64,000 nt of DNA from an uncultured Paracoccaceae bacterium (GTDB taxonomy: Bacteria; Pseudomonadota; Alphaproteobacteria; Rhodobacterales; Rhodobacteraceae). Shown here piece after piece: positions 16,271 to 25,349 of the stretch. The stretch lies in contig CANLEQ010000012.1 of NCBI GenBank assembly GCA_947489705.1, positions 1 to 64,000 of the forward strand, written 5' to 3'. Each line of letters opens with the position of its first letter. The first letter of the stretch is position 1. Below the pieces are notes generated by a model. That model had not been told where the DNA came from. It did no database searches and saw nothing but the letters and a program-made list of their open reading frames with translations. The translations under genes were made by a program, and so were the position numbers.

Positions 16271-16345
16271 TGGAGCGGGCGAAGAGATTCGAACTCTCGA
16301 CCCTAACCTTGGCAAGGTTATGCTCTACCCCTGAGCTACGCCCGC
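16271..16345 (-). tRNA. tRNA-Gly (GCC), copy 1
   Basis: A 75-base cloverleaf on the minus strand. The acceptor is GCGGGCG paired with CGCCCGC, the anticodon stem TAACC/GGTTA holds loop TTGCCAA (anticodon GCC), and the T-arm contains GTTCGAAT. The CCA end is encoded. It is identical to the copy at 16368-16442. Confidence 0.97.
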
Positions 16346-16367
16346 GCGCCAGATCTGTCGGTCTCGA

Positions 16368-16442
16368 TGGAGCGGGCGAAGAGATTCGAACTCTCGACCC
16401 TAACCTTGGCAAGGTTATGCTCTACCCCTGAGCTACGCCCGC
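16368..16442 (-). tRNA. tRNA-Gly (GCC), copy 2
   Basis: Identical over all 75 bases to the neighbouring tRNA, with anticodon GCC and encoded CCA. The two genes are 22 bases apart on the same strand and are probably made as one precursor, this copy being transcribed first. Confidence 0.97.
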
Positions 16443-21559: not shown

Positions 21560-23968
21560 ATGATGAGCAGCCATGACGAGAATGACGCCTTCGAAGAGGC
21601 GATGAATACGCGGTCCACACCGCTGTCGCAGCGCGCGATGGCGCCGGCGGCGACGCCATATCTCGACGGGTTGAACGACGCGCAGCGCATGGCGGTCGAG
21701 GCGCTCGACGGGCCCGTCCTGATGCTGGCGGGCGCCGGTACCGGCAAGACGCGCGCGCTGACCGCGCGAATCGCCCATCTGATGATGCAGGGCCGCGCCC
21801 GCCCGAACGAGATTCTGGCGGTGACCTTCACCAACAAGGCCGCGCGCGAGATGAAGGAACGGGTGAGCGCGCTGCTCGGCCAGACCGTCGAGGGAATGCC
21901 GTGGCTCGGCACGTTCCACGCGATCTGCGTCAAGTTGCTGCGGCGCCACGCCGAACTGGTCGGGCTCAAGTCGAACTTTACGATTCTCGACACCGACGAT
22001 CAGATCCGGCTGCTCAAGCAATTGATCAACGCCGAGAATATCGACGAGAAACGCTGGCCCGCGCGCCAGCTCGCCGGTCATATCGATCATTGGAAGAACC
22101 GCGCCTGGACGCCGCAGAAGGTCCCGGCCGCCGAGGCCGGCGCCTACAATCACCGTGGCACCGAACTCTACGATTACTACCAGCAACGGCTGAAGACGCT
22201 CAACGCGGTCGATTTCGGCGATCTTCTGCTCCACGTCGTGACGATCTTCCAGGAGCATCCCGACGTGCTGGAGCAATACCAGCGGTGGTTCCGGTACATC
22301 CTCGTCGACGAGTACCAGGATACCAACGTCGCGCAGTATCTGTGGCTGCGCCTGCTGGCGCAGGGGCACAAGAACATCTGCTGCGTCGGCGACGACGACC
22401 AGTCGATCTATGGCTGGCGCGGCGCCGAAGTGGGCAACATCCTGCGATTCGAGAAGGATTTTCCCGGCGCGACGGTCGTTCGGCTGGAGCAGAACTACCG
22501 CTCCACGCCGCATATCCTGGCCGCGGCGGCGGGTGTCATCGCCTCGAACGAAGGCCGGCTCGGCAAGACGCTCTTCACCGACCTGACCGAGGGCGAGCGG
22601 GTGCGTCTCATCGGCCATTGGGACGGCGAGGAAGAGGCGCGCTGGATCGGCGATGAGGTCGAGGCGATGGGCCGCGGAACGCGCGGGATGGACCCGATTT
22701 CGCTCGACGACATGGCGATTCTCGTCCGGGCCTCGCACCAGATGCGCGCCTTCGAGGATCGGTTCCTGACGATCGGGCTGCCTTACCGCGTCATCGGCGG
22801 GCCGCGATTCTACGAACGGCTCGAGATTCGCGACGCGATGGCCTATTTCAGATGCGTGGTGAGCCCGGACGACGATCTCGCCTTCGAGCGGATCGTCAAC
22901 ACGCCCAAGCGCGGTCTCGGCGACAAGGCGCAACAGAACATCCAGCGCACGGCGCGCGAGAACGGCGCGACCCTGATCGACGGCGCGCGGATCCTGCTGG
23001 CCGATGGCGCGATCGGCGGCAAGGGCGGTGCCGAGCTGCGCGTGCTGGTCGACAACCTCGCCCGCTGGCACGACCTGACGCGGAGGCCCGACCAGAGCCA
23101 TATCGAGCTCGCCGAGATGATTCTCGAGGAATCGGGCTATACGGCGCATTGGCAGAACGACAAGACGCCCGAGGCCCCCGGCCGGCTCGAGAACCTCAAG
23201 GAACTGATCAAGGCGCTCGAACAATTCGAGAATCTGCAGGGCTTTCTCGAGCATGTCGCCCTCATCATGGACAACGAGACCGAAGAGGGCGGCGCCAAGA
23301 TCAGCGTCATGACCCTGCACGCGGCCAAGGGCCTGGAATTTCCGGTAATCTTCCTGCCGGGCTGGGAGGACGGTCTCTTTCCGTCGCAGCGGTCGATGGA
23401 CGAATCCGGTCTCAAGGGGCTCGAGGAGGAACGCAGGCTGGCCTATGTCGGCATCACCCGCTCGGAGCGCGTCTGCACGATCAGCTTCGCAGCCAACCGG
23501 CGTGTGTACGGTCAATGGCAGTCGGCGCTTCCGTCGCGGTTCATCGACGAATTGCCCGAGGAAAACGTCGAGGTTCTGACGCCGCCGGGCCTCTATGGCG
23601 GCGGCTACGGAGCGGCGGGCATGGCAGCCAGCGCGTCGCCAGCGATCATGGCCGCGCAGGCGAGCGACCTTCACGACCGCGCAGGTCGTGCGGATGTCTA
23701 CAACTCCCCCGGCTGGCGCCGCTTGCAGGAGCGCAGCGCCTCGCGCCCCATGCGTCAGCCCCAGGAAAGCCGCAACATGACGATCGATGCCAGCGCCCTG
23801 CCGGCATTCGACGAAGGTGAGCGGGTCTTCCATCGCAAGTTCGGTTACGGGATCGTCACGGCGATCGAGGGCGACAAGCTCGACATCCAGTTCGACAAGG
23901 CCGGCCGCAAGAAGGTCGTTGCCAAGTTTCTGGTCGATGCCGACGAGGCCGGCGACGTCCCCTTCTGA
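21560..23968 (+). CDS. uvrD: UvrD/PcrA-type DNA helicase
   Basis: An 802-residue superfamily 1A helicase acting in excision and mismatch repair and in clearing stalled replication or transcription complexes. Walker A AGAGTGKT is at residues 57-64. Motif Ia is AVTFTNKAAREM, motif II VDEYQDTN, motif III GDDDQSIYGWRGA, motif IV LEQNYRST and motif V TLHAAKGLEFPVIFLPGWE. The last 50 residues (GERVFHRKFGYGIVTAIEGD...) form the Tudor-like C-terminal domain that in PcrA/UvrD contacts RNA polymerase. An N-terminal extension of about 35 residues is poorly conserved. It is divergent from the hydroxy-acid gene. Confidence 0.93.
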   Translation: MMSSHDENDAFEEAMNTRSTPLSQRAMAPAATPYLDGLNDAQRMAVEALDGPVLMLAGAGTGKTRALTARIAHLMMQGRARPNEILAVTFTNKAAREMKERVSALLGQTVEGMPWLGTFHAICVKLLRRHAELVGLKSNFTILDTDDQIRLLKQLINAENIDEKRWPARQLAGHIDHWKNRAWTPQKVPAAEAGAYNHRGTELYDYYQQRLKTLNAVDFGDLLLHVVTIFQEHPDVLEQYQRWFRYILVDEYQDTNVAQYLWLRLLAQGHKNICCVGDDDQSIYGWRGAEVGNILRFEKDFPGATVVRLEQNYRSTPHILAAAAGVIASNEGRLGKTLFTDLTEGERVRLIGHWDGEEEARWIGDEVEAMGRGTRGMDPISLDDMAILVRASHQMRAFEDRFLTIGLPYRVIGGPRFYERLEIRDAMAYFRCVVSPDDDLAFERIVNTPKRGLGDKAQQNIQRTARENGATLIDGARILLADGAIGGKGGAELRVLVDNLARWHDLTRRPDQSHIELAEMILEESGYTAHWQNDKTPEAPGRLENLKELIKALEQFENLQGFLEHVALIMDNETEEGGAKISVMTLHAAKGLEFPVIFLPGWEDGLFPSQRSMDESGLKGLEEERRLAYVGITRSERVCTISFAANRRVYGQWQSALPSRFIDELPEENVEVLTPPGLYGGGYGAAGMAASASPAIMAAQASDLHDRAGRADVYNSPGWRRLQERSASRPMRQPQESRNMTIDASALPAFDEGERVFHRKFGYGIVTAIEGDKLDIQFDKAGRKKVVAKFLVDADEAGDVPF

Positions 23969-24082
23969 AGACGATATCCGGAAAATTTCGCGCGTGACTG
24001 GGGTGACGCTCCGGCCGGGTGCGTGGTTTTGAGCGGATGATCCTCCCCGCGGCGCTCCGTTTCAGAGGCGGAAACGCAAAAC

Positions 24083-24148
24083 GGCGACGCCCGGGAGGAG
24101 GTGGACGTCGCCGCTCTTTTCGCATCGGCCCTGGGAGGAGGTAGAGCC
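24083..24148 (-). ncRNA. CcsR/cuckoo-type sRNA, unit 5 (distal, diverged) with probable 3' end of the array
   Basis: The most diverged unit. Hairpin A (about 24127-24148) has an imperfect GGCCCT/AGAGCC stem. Hairpin B has stem GGCGACG/CGTCGCC (24083-24089 with 24106-24112). On the minus strand the last stem is followed by GTTTTGCGTTT, so this hairpin may also end transcription. Both loops still contain the intact CCUCCUCCC motif. Confidence 0.7.
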
Positions 24149-24185
24149 TCAGCGCGTCGGACGGGCCGATGGCCCGAATTCTTGA

Positions 24186-24256
24186 GCGACGGGGCCGGGG
24201 AGGAGGTCGACCCCGTCGCCTGGAACGGATTACCCTGGGAGGAGGTAGGGCATCCG
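24186..24256 (-). ncRNA. CcsR/cuckoo-type sRNA, unit 4
   Basis: The same two hairpins a further 104 bases down (24226-24256 and 24186-24219). Hairpin A carries a TTA instead of TCA bulge. Both loops keep CCUCCUCCC. Confidence 0.78.
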
Positions 24257-24289
24257 CATTGCTGTCGGGCCGGTGGCCCGAATTCTTGA

Positions 24290-24360
24290 GCGACGGGGCC
24301 GGGGAGGAGGTCGACCCCGTCGCCTGGAACGGATCACCCTGGGAGGAGGTAGGGCGTCCG
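24290..24360 (-). ncRNA. CcsR/cuckoo-type sRNA, unit 3
   Basis: The same two hairpins as unit 2, shifted by exactly 104 bases (24330-24360 and 24290-24323), each presenting CCUCCUCCC in the loop. Hairpin A has one base change near its base (gcgtccg instead of gcatccg on the plus strand). Confidence 0.78.
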
Positions 24361-24393
24361 CATTGCTGTTGGGCCAATGGCCCGAATTCCTGA

Positions 24394-24464
24394 GCGACGG
24401 GGCCGGGGAGGAGGTCGACCCCGTCGCCTGGAACGGATCACCCTGGGAGGAGGTAGGGCATCCG
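24394..24464 (-). ncRNA. CcsR/cuckoo-type sRNA, unit 2
   Basis: Hairpin A (24434-24464) pairs CGGAT with ATCCG and CCCT with AGGG around the loop motif. Hairpin B (24394-24427) has the 9-bp GCGACGGGG stem. It is almost identical to units 3 and 4. Confidence 0.78.
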
Positions 24465-24497
24465 CATTGCTGTTGGGCCGGTGGCCCGAATTCTTGA

Positions 24498-24570
24498 GCG
24501 ACGGGGCCGGGGAGGAGGTCGACCCCGTCGCCTGAACGTACGATCCCGGGAGGAGGTAGGATCGGACGTA
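24498..24570 (-). ncRNA. CcsR/cuckoo-type sRNA, unit 1 (promoter-proximal)
   Basis: The first unit after the DUF1127 gene. Hairpin A has stem CGATCC/GGATCG (24541-24546 with 24559-24564) and its own flanking sequence, unlike the other A hairpins. Hairpin B has the 9-bp stem GCGACGGGG/CCCCGTCGC (24498-24506 with 24523-24531). Both loops carry CCUCCUCCC. Boundaries are estimated from the stems. Confidence 0.75.
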
Positions 24571-24667
24571 TTACATGAACCCTAAGGTTCGGTGTCTTCT
24601 CGGCGCCATTTTGATTGTCATGGGCCGTTTTCCGCCCCGTGCCGTCACCGGCGGGGCTGGAAAGATC

Positions 24668-24883
24668 TCACTTCTCGCCGTATGCCGCCTCGAGCGCCAC
24701 GGCCCGGACGCCGCTGCGATCGATGCCGAGATCGGCCAGCTCGCGGTTGCCGAGCGACATCAGTTCGTCCCGGGTGCGGGTGTAGATGCGCCAGCGAATA
24801 TACTGGGCTCGGGCGTTGGCGAAAATGCCTCCGAGGGCGGATCCCTCGTGGGGGCGAATATCGGTCTGGGTATACATCGTCAT
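24668..24883 (-). CDS. ccaF1: DUF1127 small RNA-binding protein, CcaF1-like
   Basis: A 71-residue basic protein starting MTMYTQTDIRPHEG. Its C-terminal half (WRIYTRTRDELMSLGNRELADLGI) is the DUF1127/YjiS-like domain with the conserved LxxLxxRxLxDLGI pattern. In Rhodobacter sphaeroides the homologous gene RSP_6037 encodes CcaF1, an RNA-binding protein that aids maturation of the CcsR RNAs from the shared transcript. The same order is seen here, with the sRNA array starting about 100 bases downstream on the same strand. An alternative ATG is two codons further in (24877). It is a separate unit from the mraZ leader, which is transcribed away from it. Confidence 0.85.
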   Translation of the reverse strand: MTMYTQTDIRPHEGSALGGIFANARAQYIRWRIYTRTRDELMSLGNRELADLGIDRSGVRAVALEAAYGEK

Positions 24884-24924
24884 AACTTGGCTCGCTTCCG
24901 TATGTCTTCGTCGGCGTTGGGATG

Positions 24925-24952
24925 AACATATGCCAATGCTGCGGATGCACAA
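24925..24952 (-). promoter_or_regulatory. Candidate promoter for the DUF1127-sRNA transcript
   Basis: On the minus strand TTGTGC (24947-24952), a 16-base spacer and TATGTT (24925-24930) would place a start near 24918, about 35 bases before the DUF1127 ATG. In R. sphaeroides the equivalent transcript depends on the RpoH-type sigma factors. The boxes here do not clearly fit that consensus, so the assignment is tentative. Confidence 0.3.
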
Positions 24953-25349
24953 TCCGGAGAATGTTCAATGCTGCCATGCAGCAAATGCATAAGTGACGCT
25001 GACCATTTCCGGAGCGCCTGATCTCCTCATCCATACGTGCGCAGGATTGGGACGGTGTGGGACGGCCGGCGCGCAGCCTGACACGATTTGGGCCGCTATG
25101 GGAGGCGATGCGATTCTCGCCCGATTCTGTGCGCGCTTCTGGAATTGCGCTCAGGGATCCCGGTCCGATGCGTGTGCAGGCAGGCCGAAGCGTCGAAAAA
25201 ATGGTTAAAACCGCAACCACAAGATCTGGTGCCAGGGCAAGCGTTCGCTGCCCTATCGTCCTCCACCCTTTGAACAATCCGTGAATGTGTGGAGTTTGGG
25301 TCATAGCGACCAGCGCCAGGCGCGACCGCCGAGGCAGATTTTTCTTGCG
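24953..25349. other. Gene-free stretch between the DUF1127 and mraZ transcripts
   Basis: No credible gene was found on either strand. The short open frames lack ribosome-binding sites and family features. The stretch has a lower GC content than its surroundings. It includes a near-palindrome TGCTGCCATGCAGCA near 24970 and, at 25048-25066, two direct copies of TGGGACGG ten bases apart. Confidence 0.6.
25048..25062 (+). promoter_or_regulatory. Possible secondary MraZ half-box pair
   Basis: TGGGA occurs at 25048-25052 and 25058-25062, exactly ten bases apart, followed each time by CGG. This is the repeat and spacing recognised by MraZ. There are only two copies, they lie nearly 600 bases before mraZ, and the orientation is opposite to the stronger site at 25350. 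Confidence 0.3.

Follow-up and report, generated by a model that had tools for sequence, protein, structure and literature searches.

The minus strand of the window, a 64,000-nt stretch of DNA from an uncultured Paracoccaceae bacterium, carries what we hold with good confidence to be a ccaF1-CcsR operon encoding five two-hairpin RNAs, transcribed from an RpoH-like core promoter with the orthologue of LsrB/VtlR as its probable activator. The locus is of the CcsR/cuckoo (CIN1-type) kind, and the array itself is one more example of a known and widespread RNA family; the new information lies in the promoter, which the initial annotation of this DNA did not mention.

The operon begins with a 71-codon gene on the minus strand (24668 to 24883) that encodes a ccaF1-like DUF1127 protein (P0001), whose 71-aa translation matches the Pfam DUF1127 family at 38.7 bits (gathering score 23.3). 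Ten CCTCCTCCC motifs come next, at 24556 to 24093; the whole window contains 11, against 1.25 expected, and none of 100 dinucleotide shuffles reached 11. Successive motifs are 38-40 and 65 bases apart by turns, which gives a repeat period of 103-104 bases, and the ten motifs form five two-hairpin units with periods of 103, 104, 104 and 104 bases: unit 1 at 24478 to 24580 (motifs 24548-24556 and 24510-24518), unit 2 at 24374 to 24477 (24445-24453 and 24406-24414), unit 3 at 24270 to 24373 (24341-24349 and 24302-24310), unit 4 at 24166 to 24269 (24237-24245 and 24198-24206) and unit 5 at 24062 to 24165 (24133-24141 and 24093-24101), all on the minus strand. Folding in 49-base pieces placed the same 10-nt sequence, ACCUCCUCCC, in the loop of all ten hairpins, the first hairpin of each unit being the weaker (approximately -13 to -17 kcal/mol) and the second the stronger (-26 to -31 kcal/mol). 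The reading frame, the motif counts and the folds thus bear out the initial annotation in its description of a DUF1127 gene followed by ten loop motifs in five tandem units. The last hairpin, followed by TTTTGCGTTTC (24078 to 24117, minus strand), is, judged by sequence and fold, a probable intrinsic terminator whose loop is also anti-Shine-Dalgarno; it is missing from the list of the terminator scan because the scan takes only loops of 3-8. Between the units, minus-strand mini-hairpins of the form GGGCC-N3-GGCCC (24475 to 24487, 24371-24383, 24267-24279 and 24163-24175) may mark processing sites, and a similar GGGCC-N4-GGCCC is present in G007, a relative from the same genus. The array converges on a plus-strand gene outside the operon (21560 to 23968), which we take to be uvrD, encoding a UvrD helicase; a protein 93% identical to its product lies beside the G007 array, and a related frame lies near 18 of 40 other arrays (in stretches of about 1.5 kb on each side). 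A tandem pair of tRNA-Gly (gcc) genes is found elsewhere in the window, at 16271-16442 on the minus strand.

The initial annotation had proposed a check of the array against an Rfam covariance model. All five units matched CcsR1 (RF02791) by E-value (2.5e-9 to 4.7e-6, 33-44 bits), albeit only below the gathering score: the best unit scored 44.2 bits and none reached 65.3, a value that is the curators' cut-off and not a biological feature. The ar14 model (RF02344) also matched three places in the array below threshold, and ar7 and unrelated families matched more weakly. The hairpins lie in adjacent pairs, each with a CCUCCUCCC loop, and the tandem RNAs share their strand with the short DUF1127 gene that precedes them. 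As the initial annotation maintained, the locus corresponds in kind to ccaF1-CcsR1-4 of Rhodobacter sphaeroides (RF02791; CIN1/cuckoo), with which it shares the 71-aa DUF1127 protein encoded upstream, the tandem two-hairpin RNAs, the CCUCCUCCC loops, the terminator-like last hairpin and a possible RpoH-type core promoter, and from which it differs in having five units instead of four and in scoring 33-44 bits against the cut-off of 65.3. In a survey of 295 genomes of the window's family (which we infer to be Rhodobacteraceae), sampled at nearly one per genus, a CcsR1 match at E <=0.001 was found in 243 and a score above the gathering score in 10, leaving 52 genomes with no CcsR1 match; of the 14 unrelated genomes used as controls, one (Thermus composti) also matched at E 0.001. 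The RF02791 gathering score misses nearly all probable CcsR1 homologues in this family. One of the surveyed genomes, G163, has four CcsR1 matches and encodes a DUF1127 protein of 71 aa, in agreement with what the accessible parts of the R. sphaeroides papers describe; it is this agreement that points to Rhodobacteraceae as the family.

The hairpins are conserved as structures, since their loops are fixed and their stems change in pairs. We compared, as ungapped stems, 99 distinct hairpins with A at loop position 1 from 25 loci, nearly all from the window's bacterial family (L002 comes from another family). The six loop-proximal stem positions paired in 90-99% of these hairpins (shuffled-partner means 42-90%), and each showed 8-61 changes on both sides of the stem, counts in which the changes are not independent events because the units of one array are related; positions 7-12 paired at 68-76%. 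Hairpins with T, C or G at loop position 1 (172 of 283 hairpin windows) were excluded because their loop is longer, and pairing over the first six positions was lower, at 43-86%, when all 251 distinct hairpins were compared without gaps. That the array might be a non-functional tandem repeat or have some other origin, as a satellite or a mobile element, is suggested by the near-identity of the tandem units and by their differing number in relatives, but this explanation is hardly credible in the face of covariation around invariant loops and of a promoter element and a DUF1127 partner that recur in many genera.

The number of units was presented in the initial annotation as an enlargement of the system to five copies. 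The 243 matching genomes carry from 1 to 11 CcsR1 copies (one in 62, two in 47, three in 55, four in 41, five in 24 and more than five in 14), at least 38 of them have five or more, and G007 has seven units, so that five copies are not exceptional and an expansion to five is ruled out as new biology; what the array does show is wide copy-number variation in a known RNA family. These counts take in every place in a genome, whether in an array or not, and are lower bounds because the filters were strict and at most 14 candidates were scored per genome. Pieces of arrays sit at contig ends in G008 and G013, hence short-read assembly may miscount such repeats, and the five units of the window are those distinguishable in the assembly.

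Comparison with G007 indicates how the array has evolved. Units 2-4 of the window are 96.2% identical among themselves (97-98% in the comparison with G007), unit 1 shares 78-82% identity with these three, and unit 5 shares 57-64% with units 1-4; in G007, the inner units 2-5 share 97-100% mutual identity and unit 6 is 92-94% identical to them. Between the two species the inner units are 80-83% identical and the first units 81%, no closer than unit 1 of the window is to its own inner units (the two first units paired in a quick tree with a support of 0.97), while the last units are 90.4%, the neighbouring proteins 93% and the DUF1127 proteins 65% identical. Because identity is high inside each species and low between them, the inner units must have been replaced or homogenised within each lineage, which fits the recent tandem duplication or gene conversion that the initial annotation had read from how little the middle units differ. 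The inner part of the array evolves in concert, and the last unit, also the terminator, stays orthologous. The same annotation offered distinct targets for the diverged first and last RNAs as a possible novelty. If the five units were functionally distinct and these two acted on different targets through their stems, the divergence of units 1 and 5 from the middle and the retention of unit 5 between two species would be accounted for; all ten loops, however, consist of the same ten bases, the differences lie in covarying stems and are compensatory, and the role as terminator explains the conservation of unit 5 as well. We find the proposal unsupported and quite improbable. With identical loops throughout, additional units would mainly add dosage.

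Upstream of the DUF1127 gene, we identified a two-part element composed of ATGCATTTGCTGCATGGCAGCATTG, a 12-base spacer (AACATTCTCCGG) and ATTGTGCATCCGCAGCATTGGCATATGTT. The following features can be recognized in it on the minus strand: a VtlR/LsrB-like box, TGCATGGCAGCATTG (24966 to 24980); an inverted repeat, TGCTGC-ATG-GCAGCA (24969 to 24983), that overlaps the box; the second part of the element, ATTGTGCATCCGCAGCA (24937 to 24953), whose distance from the box is kept at 12 or 11 nt and which may hold a -35 region (TTGTGC) and a second activator site; and a -10-like sequence, CATATGTT (24925 to 24932), identified from its position in the conserved block. Read by eye, TTGTGC and CATATGTT are at a plausible core-promoter distance, and we estimate that transcription would start near 24918. 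The box is the sole mismatch-free match to TGCATNGCNGCATTG in the window genome.

The element is shared by most arrays of this kind. Among 41 arrays whose choice predates our recognition of the element and which all have 450 nt or more of upstream sequence (second loci at the same place were excluded, as was L025, which is too short), it precedes 36 at no more than 4 mismatches in 27 specified positions, with a spacing of 12 nt in 26 and of 11 nt in 10, and it was found in 0 of 41 after one shuffle and in 0 of 41 reverse complements, controls that never had fewer than 8 mismatches. The element is absent upstream of the remaining five arrays (L004, L007, L008, L009 and L018), all of which come from genomes with another array except L007. 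Searching for the element alone (at most 3 mismatches, spacing 12) returned 126 sites in 121 of 295 genomes and the reversed pattern none in 295; 174 genomes, with or without CcsR, lack the element at this stringency and spacing. We inspected 51 of the 126 sites, namely 31 sites in 30 loci and 20 others (15 with 2-3 mismatches, the second site of G026 and the single ones of G137, G219, G330 and G332). At least one CCTCCTCCC motif lies within 600 nt downstream of 48 of them, and the other three (L155, L156 and L140) have a DUF1127 frame downstream. Three loci (L142, L145 and L026) have no DUF1127 gene separating the element from the hairpins, the first hairpin motif following it at a distance of 60-105 nt. 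On the reverse strand of L140, the element precedes a DUF1127 gene that has no CCTCCTCCC in the next 1.5 kb.

The first part of the element resembles the sites of a known regulator. The VtlR-binding motif of Brucella is given as CAATGCAGCCATGCA, or TGCATGGCTGCATTG on the other strand, in the accessible text of PMC12595884. The window box agrees with it in 14 of 15 bases, the next best place in the 64 kb in 11 of 15, and in 20,000 shuffles of the upstream 300 nt a score of 14 came up only once. Across the 41 arrays, 14 of 15 bases matched in 13 and 13 of 15 in 18, compared to a maximum of 12 (in 2 of 41) for the reverse-strand control. The strict LsrB consensus, GCAT-N3-TG-N3-T (as quoted in the available portions of PMC7486931 and PMC8844928), is missed by one base in the window, and in most of these promoters the T of TG is replaced by A or G. 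Assuming the estimated start near 24918, the box would lie at about -62 to -48; the excerpts at hand on Sinorhizobium meliloti place LsrB sites at -72 to -57 upstream of nfeR1 (PMC10746234) and at -61 to -49 upstream of abcR1 (PMC8844928). NfeR1 of S. meliloti, an alpha-r14 RNA whose loops are the same, is described as strictly requiring LsrB for its expression (PMC10746234, in part). From these matches we infer that LsrB controls the operon, binding to the box included. A wider LsrB regulon in the window genome was considered and rejected, as the 12 one-mismatch half-boxes obtained are all without the second half.

A candidate for the regulator is encoded in nearly every genome of the family. 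As a query we used the LysR gene adjoining trxB in Mesorhizobium, whose product scores 431 bits to PDB 9HH1, the A. tumefaciens LsrB (PMC11975290, accessible part). At E 1e-40 it found exactly one protein in each of the 15 family genomes searched and matched in 20 of 24 genomes overall. The single orthologue in the window genome has an identity of 48% across 289 residues, with 48 of 65 in the DNA-binding part; it is the reciprocal best match (279 bits back to the Mesorhizobium query, the next 120) and scores 259 bits to PDB 9HH1, with the next chain at 106. Used as a query at E 1e-50, it has a match in 289 of 295 family genomes, two genomes having two matches, and among these 289 the reciprocal check covers the window genome; two genomes with the element (G035 and G212), both fragmented assemblies, had no LsrB match at E 1e-50. 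Since most of the 52 genomes without a CcsR1 match do have an LsrB match, the orthologue must have other work as well. A LysR gene beside trxB, as in Rhizobiales, was looked for in the window genome and not found: the gene adjoining trxB is presumably of the Lrp/AsnC type, and the lsrB orthologue lies away from trxB. Autoregulation of lsrB was considered and rejected, there being no element near the orthologue gene in six loci. Although LsrB has been called unique to Rhizobiales on a tree that includes R. sphaeroides (PMC11975290, 2025, from the part available), the matches in 289 of 295 family genomes contradict that statement.

Alternatively, RpoHI and RpoHII alone could drive the operon, with the upstream block serving another regulator or contacts of sigma factor and RNA polymerase and the likeness to VtlR sites being accidental. 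The sigma factors RpoE, RpoHI and RpoHII are the only regulators mentioned for the R. sphaeroides operon, with no LsrB-type control described, in the accessible sections of PMC10253847 and PMC7866481; the second part of the element overlaps the TTGTGC/-10-like core, and the box is one base off the strict LsrB consensus. Yet the box stands upstream of the -35 region, overlaps an inverted repeat in the window and keeps its spacing at 11 or 12 nt, 31 of the 41 arrays agree with the published VtlR motif in 13 or 14 of its 15 bases, and the LsrB orthologue finds a match in 289 of 295 family genomes, so that we regard control by the sigma factors alone as unlikely and favor LsrB as an additional activator. 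The promoter thereby points to a candidate regulator of an operon for stress RNAs whose control the available text assigns only to alternative sigma factors. No link of LsrB/VtlR to CcsR or CcaF1 appears among the literature matches listed, most subscription journals being outside their scope, nor in the available parts of PMC3927594, PMC12501420 and PMC12218461. The LsrB named in a paper on the Roseobacter group (PMC6308992, in part) was discarded, being an unrelated quorum-sensing receptor of the same name.

The orthologue of the window genome has no cysteine, and thus lacks the conserved C144 and C273 (A. tumefaciens numbering); 14 of 15 aligned family orthologues likewise have zero cysteines. 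The published redox switch cannot work in those orthologues since it has no cysteine to act on, and our guess is that a bound metabolite is the signal instead. We lean, by a modest degree, towards a broader reading in which cysteine-free LsrB is a near-dedicated activator of ccaF1-CcsR throughout the family (probably Rhodobacteraceae), AbcR, alpha-r14, CcsR and the DUF1127 genes form one old alphaproteobacterial regulon whose operator was kept while its signal changed, and Sulfitobacter-type plasmids captured single CcsR RNAs together with a host promoter, plugging into the circuit. If true, the thiol redox sensing described in Agrobacterium would be distinct from an old job of LsrB, namely activating DUF1127 genes and anti-Shine-Dalgarno RNAs.

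Two known systems allow this reading to be placed. Like the alpha-r14 RNAs (RF02344; NfeR1 of S. meliloti), the window RNAs have CCUCCUCCC loops and a box matching that of the LsrB-activated NfeR1 promoter, but NfeR1 is a three-hairpin RNA with a sigma-70 promoter and no DUF1127 co-transcription described in the accessible text (PMC10746234). The box, and DUF1127 genes and small RNAs as targets, are shared with the VtlR/LsrB regulon of Brucella and Agrobacterium, which comprises AbcR and small DUF1127 proteins (PMC7486931, PMC12595884, both in part); unlike in that regulon, the window has both kinds of target in one operon behind one box, and its regulator has no cysteines and is not encoded beside trxB.

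From the anatomy of the window and by analogy with R. sphaeroides, we propose the following mechanism. The LsrB/VtlR orthologue, bound approximately 50-60 bases upstream, would activate transcription from the RpoH-like core promoter, joining in one promoter two inputs that, according to the available part of PMC8844928, act separately in S. meliloti, on AbcR1 and AbcR2. A single primary transcript would contain the DUF1127 message and the five RNAs, RNase E, helped by the DUF1127 protein, would cut the spacers to release five RNAs of about 80-100 nt, and the last hairpin would also end transcription. The two identical ACCUCCUCCC loops of each RNA would pair with purine-rich Shine-Dalgarno sequences, blocking translation. 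In R. sphaeroides the operon is reported to yield one transcript that is processed by RNase E into Hfq-dependent RNAs binding mRNAs such as flhR (PMC10253847, PMC7866481 and PMC8307010, accessible parts). A search for GGGAGGAGG located 3-10 nt before an ATG gave 8 distinct sites (9 pattern matches), compared to 1 for the reversed pattern. Judging from the frames, we take two of these sites to precede ABC-transporter permease genes and one a GntR-type regulator gene; a fourth presumably lies inside a PfkB-type kinase frame and may be internal, and four of the 8 open no convincing gene. The list of candidate targets, drawn from pattern matches, is suggestive only.

Two further arrangements of the element were observed. 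In G342 (L122, 985 and 1501, reverse strand), the combination of element, DUF1127 gene and anti-Shine-Dalgarno motifs occurs twice at a distance of about 500 nt, which looks like a tandem duplication of the entire operon. The other is a plasmid of Sulfitobacter sp. D7 (L052, 2920-3065), which carries a single CcsR-like two-hairpin RNA behind a similar element (4 mismatches, spacing 13). The PLSDB table, which lists no RNA genes at all, shows no gene at this RNA. A 191-nt query of promoter plus RNA retrieved 18 plasmid records from Sulfitobacter, Ruegeria, Phaeobacter and relatives, L052 among them, the sequences of two (L052 and L053) being examined; 16 of the 18 match over at least 80% of the query, 15 are predicted to be mobilizable, and 7 are identical over all 191 nt.
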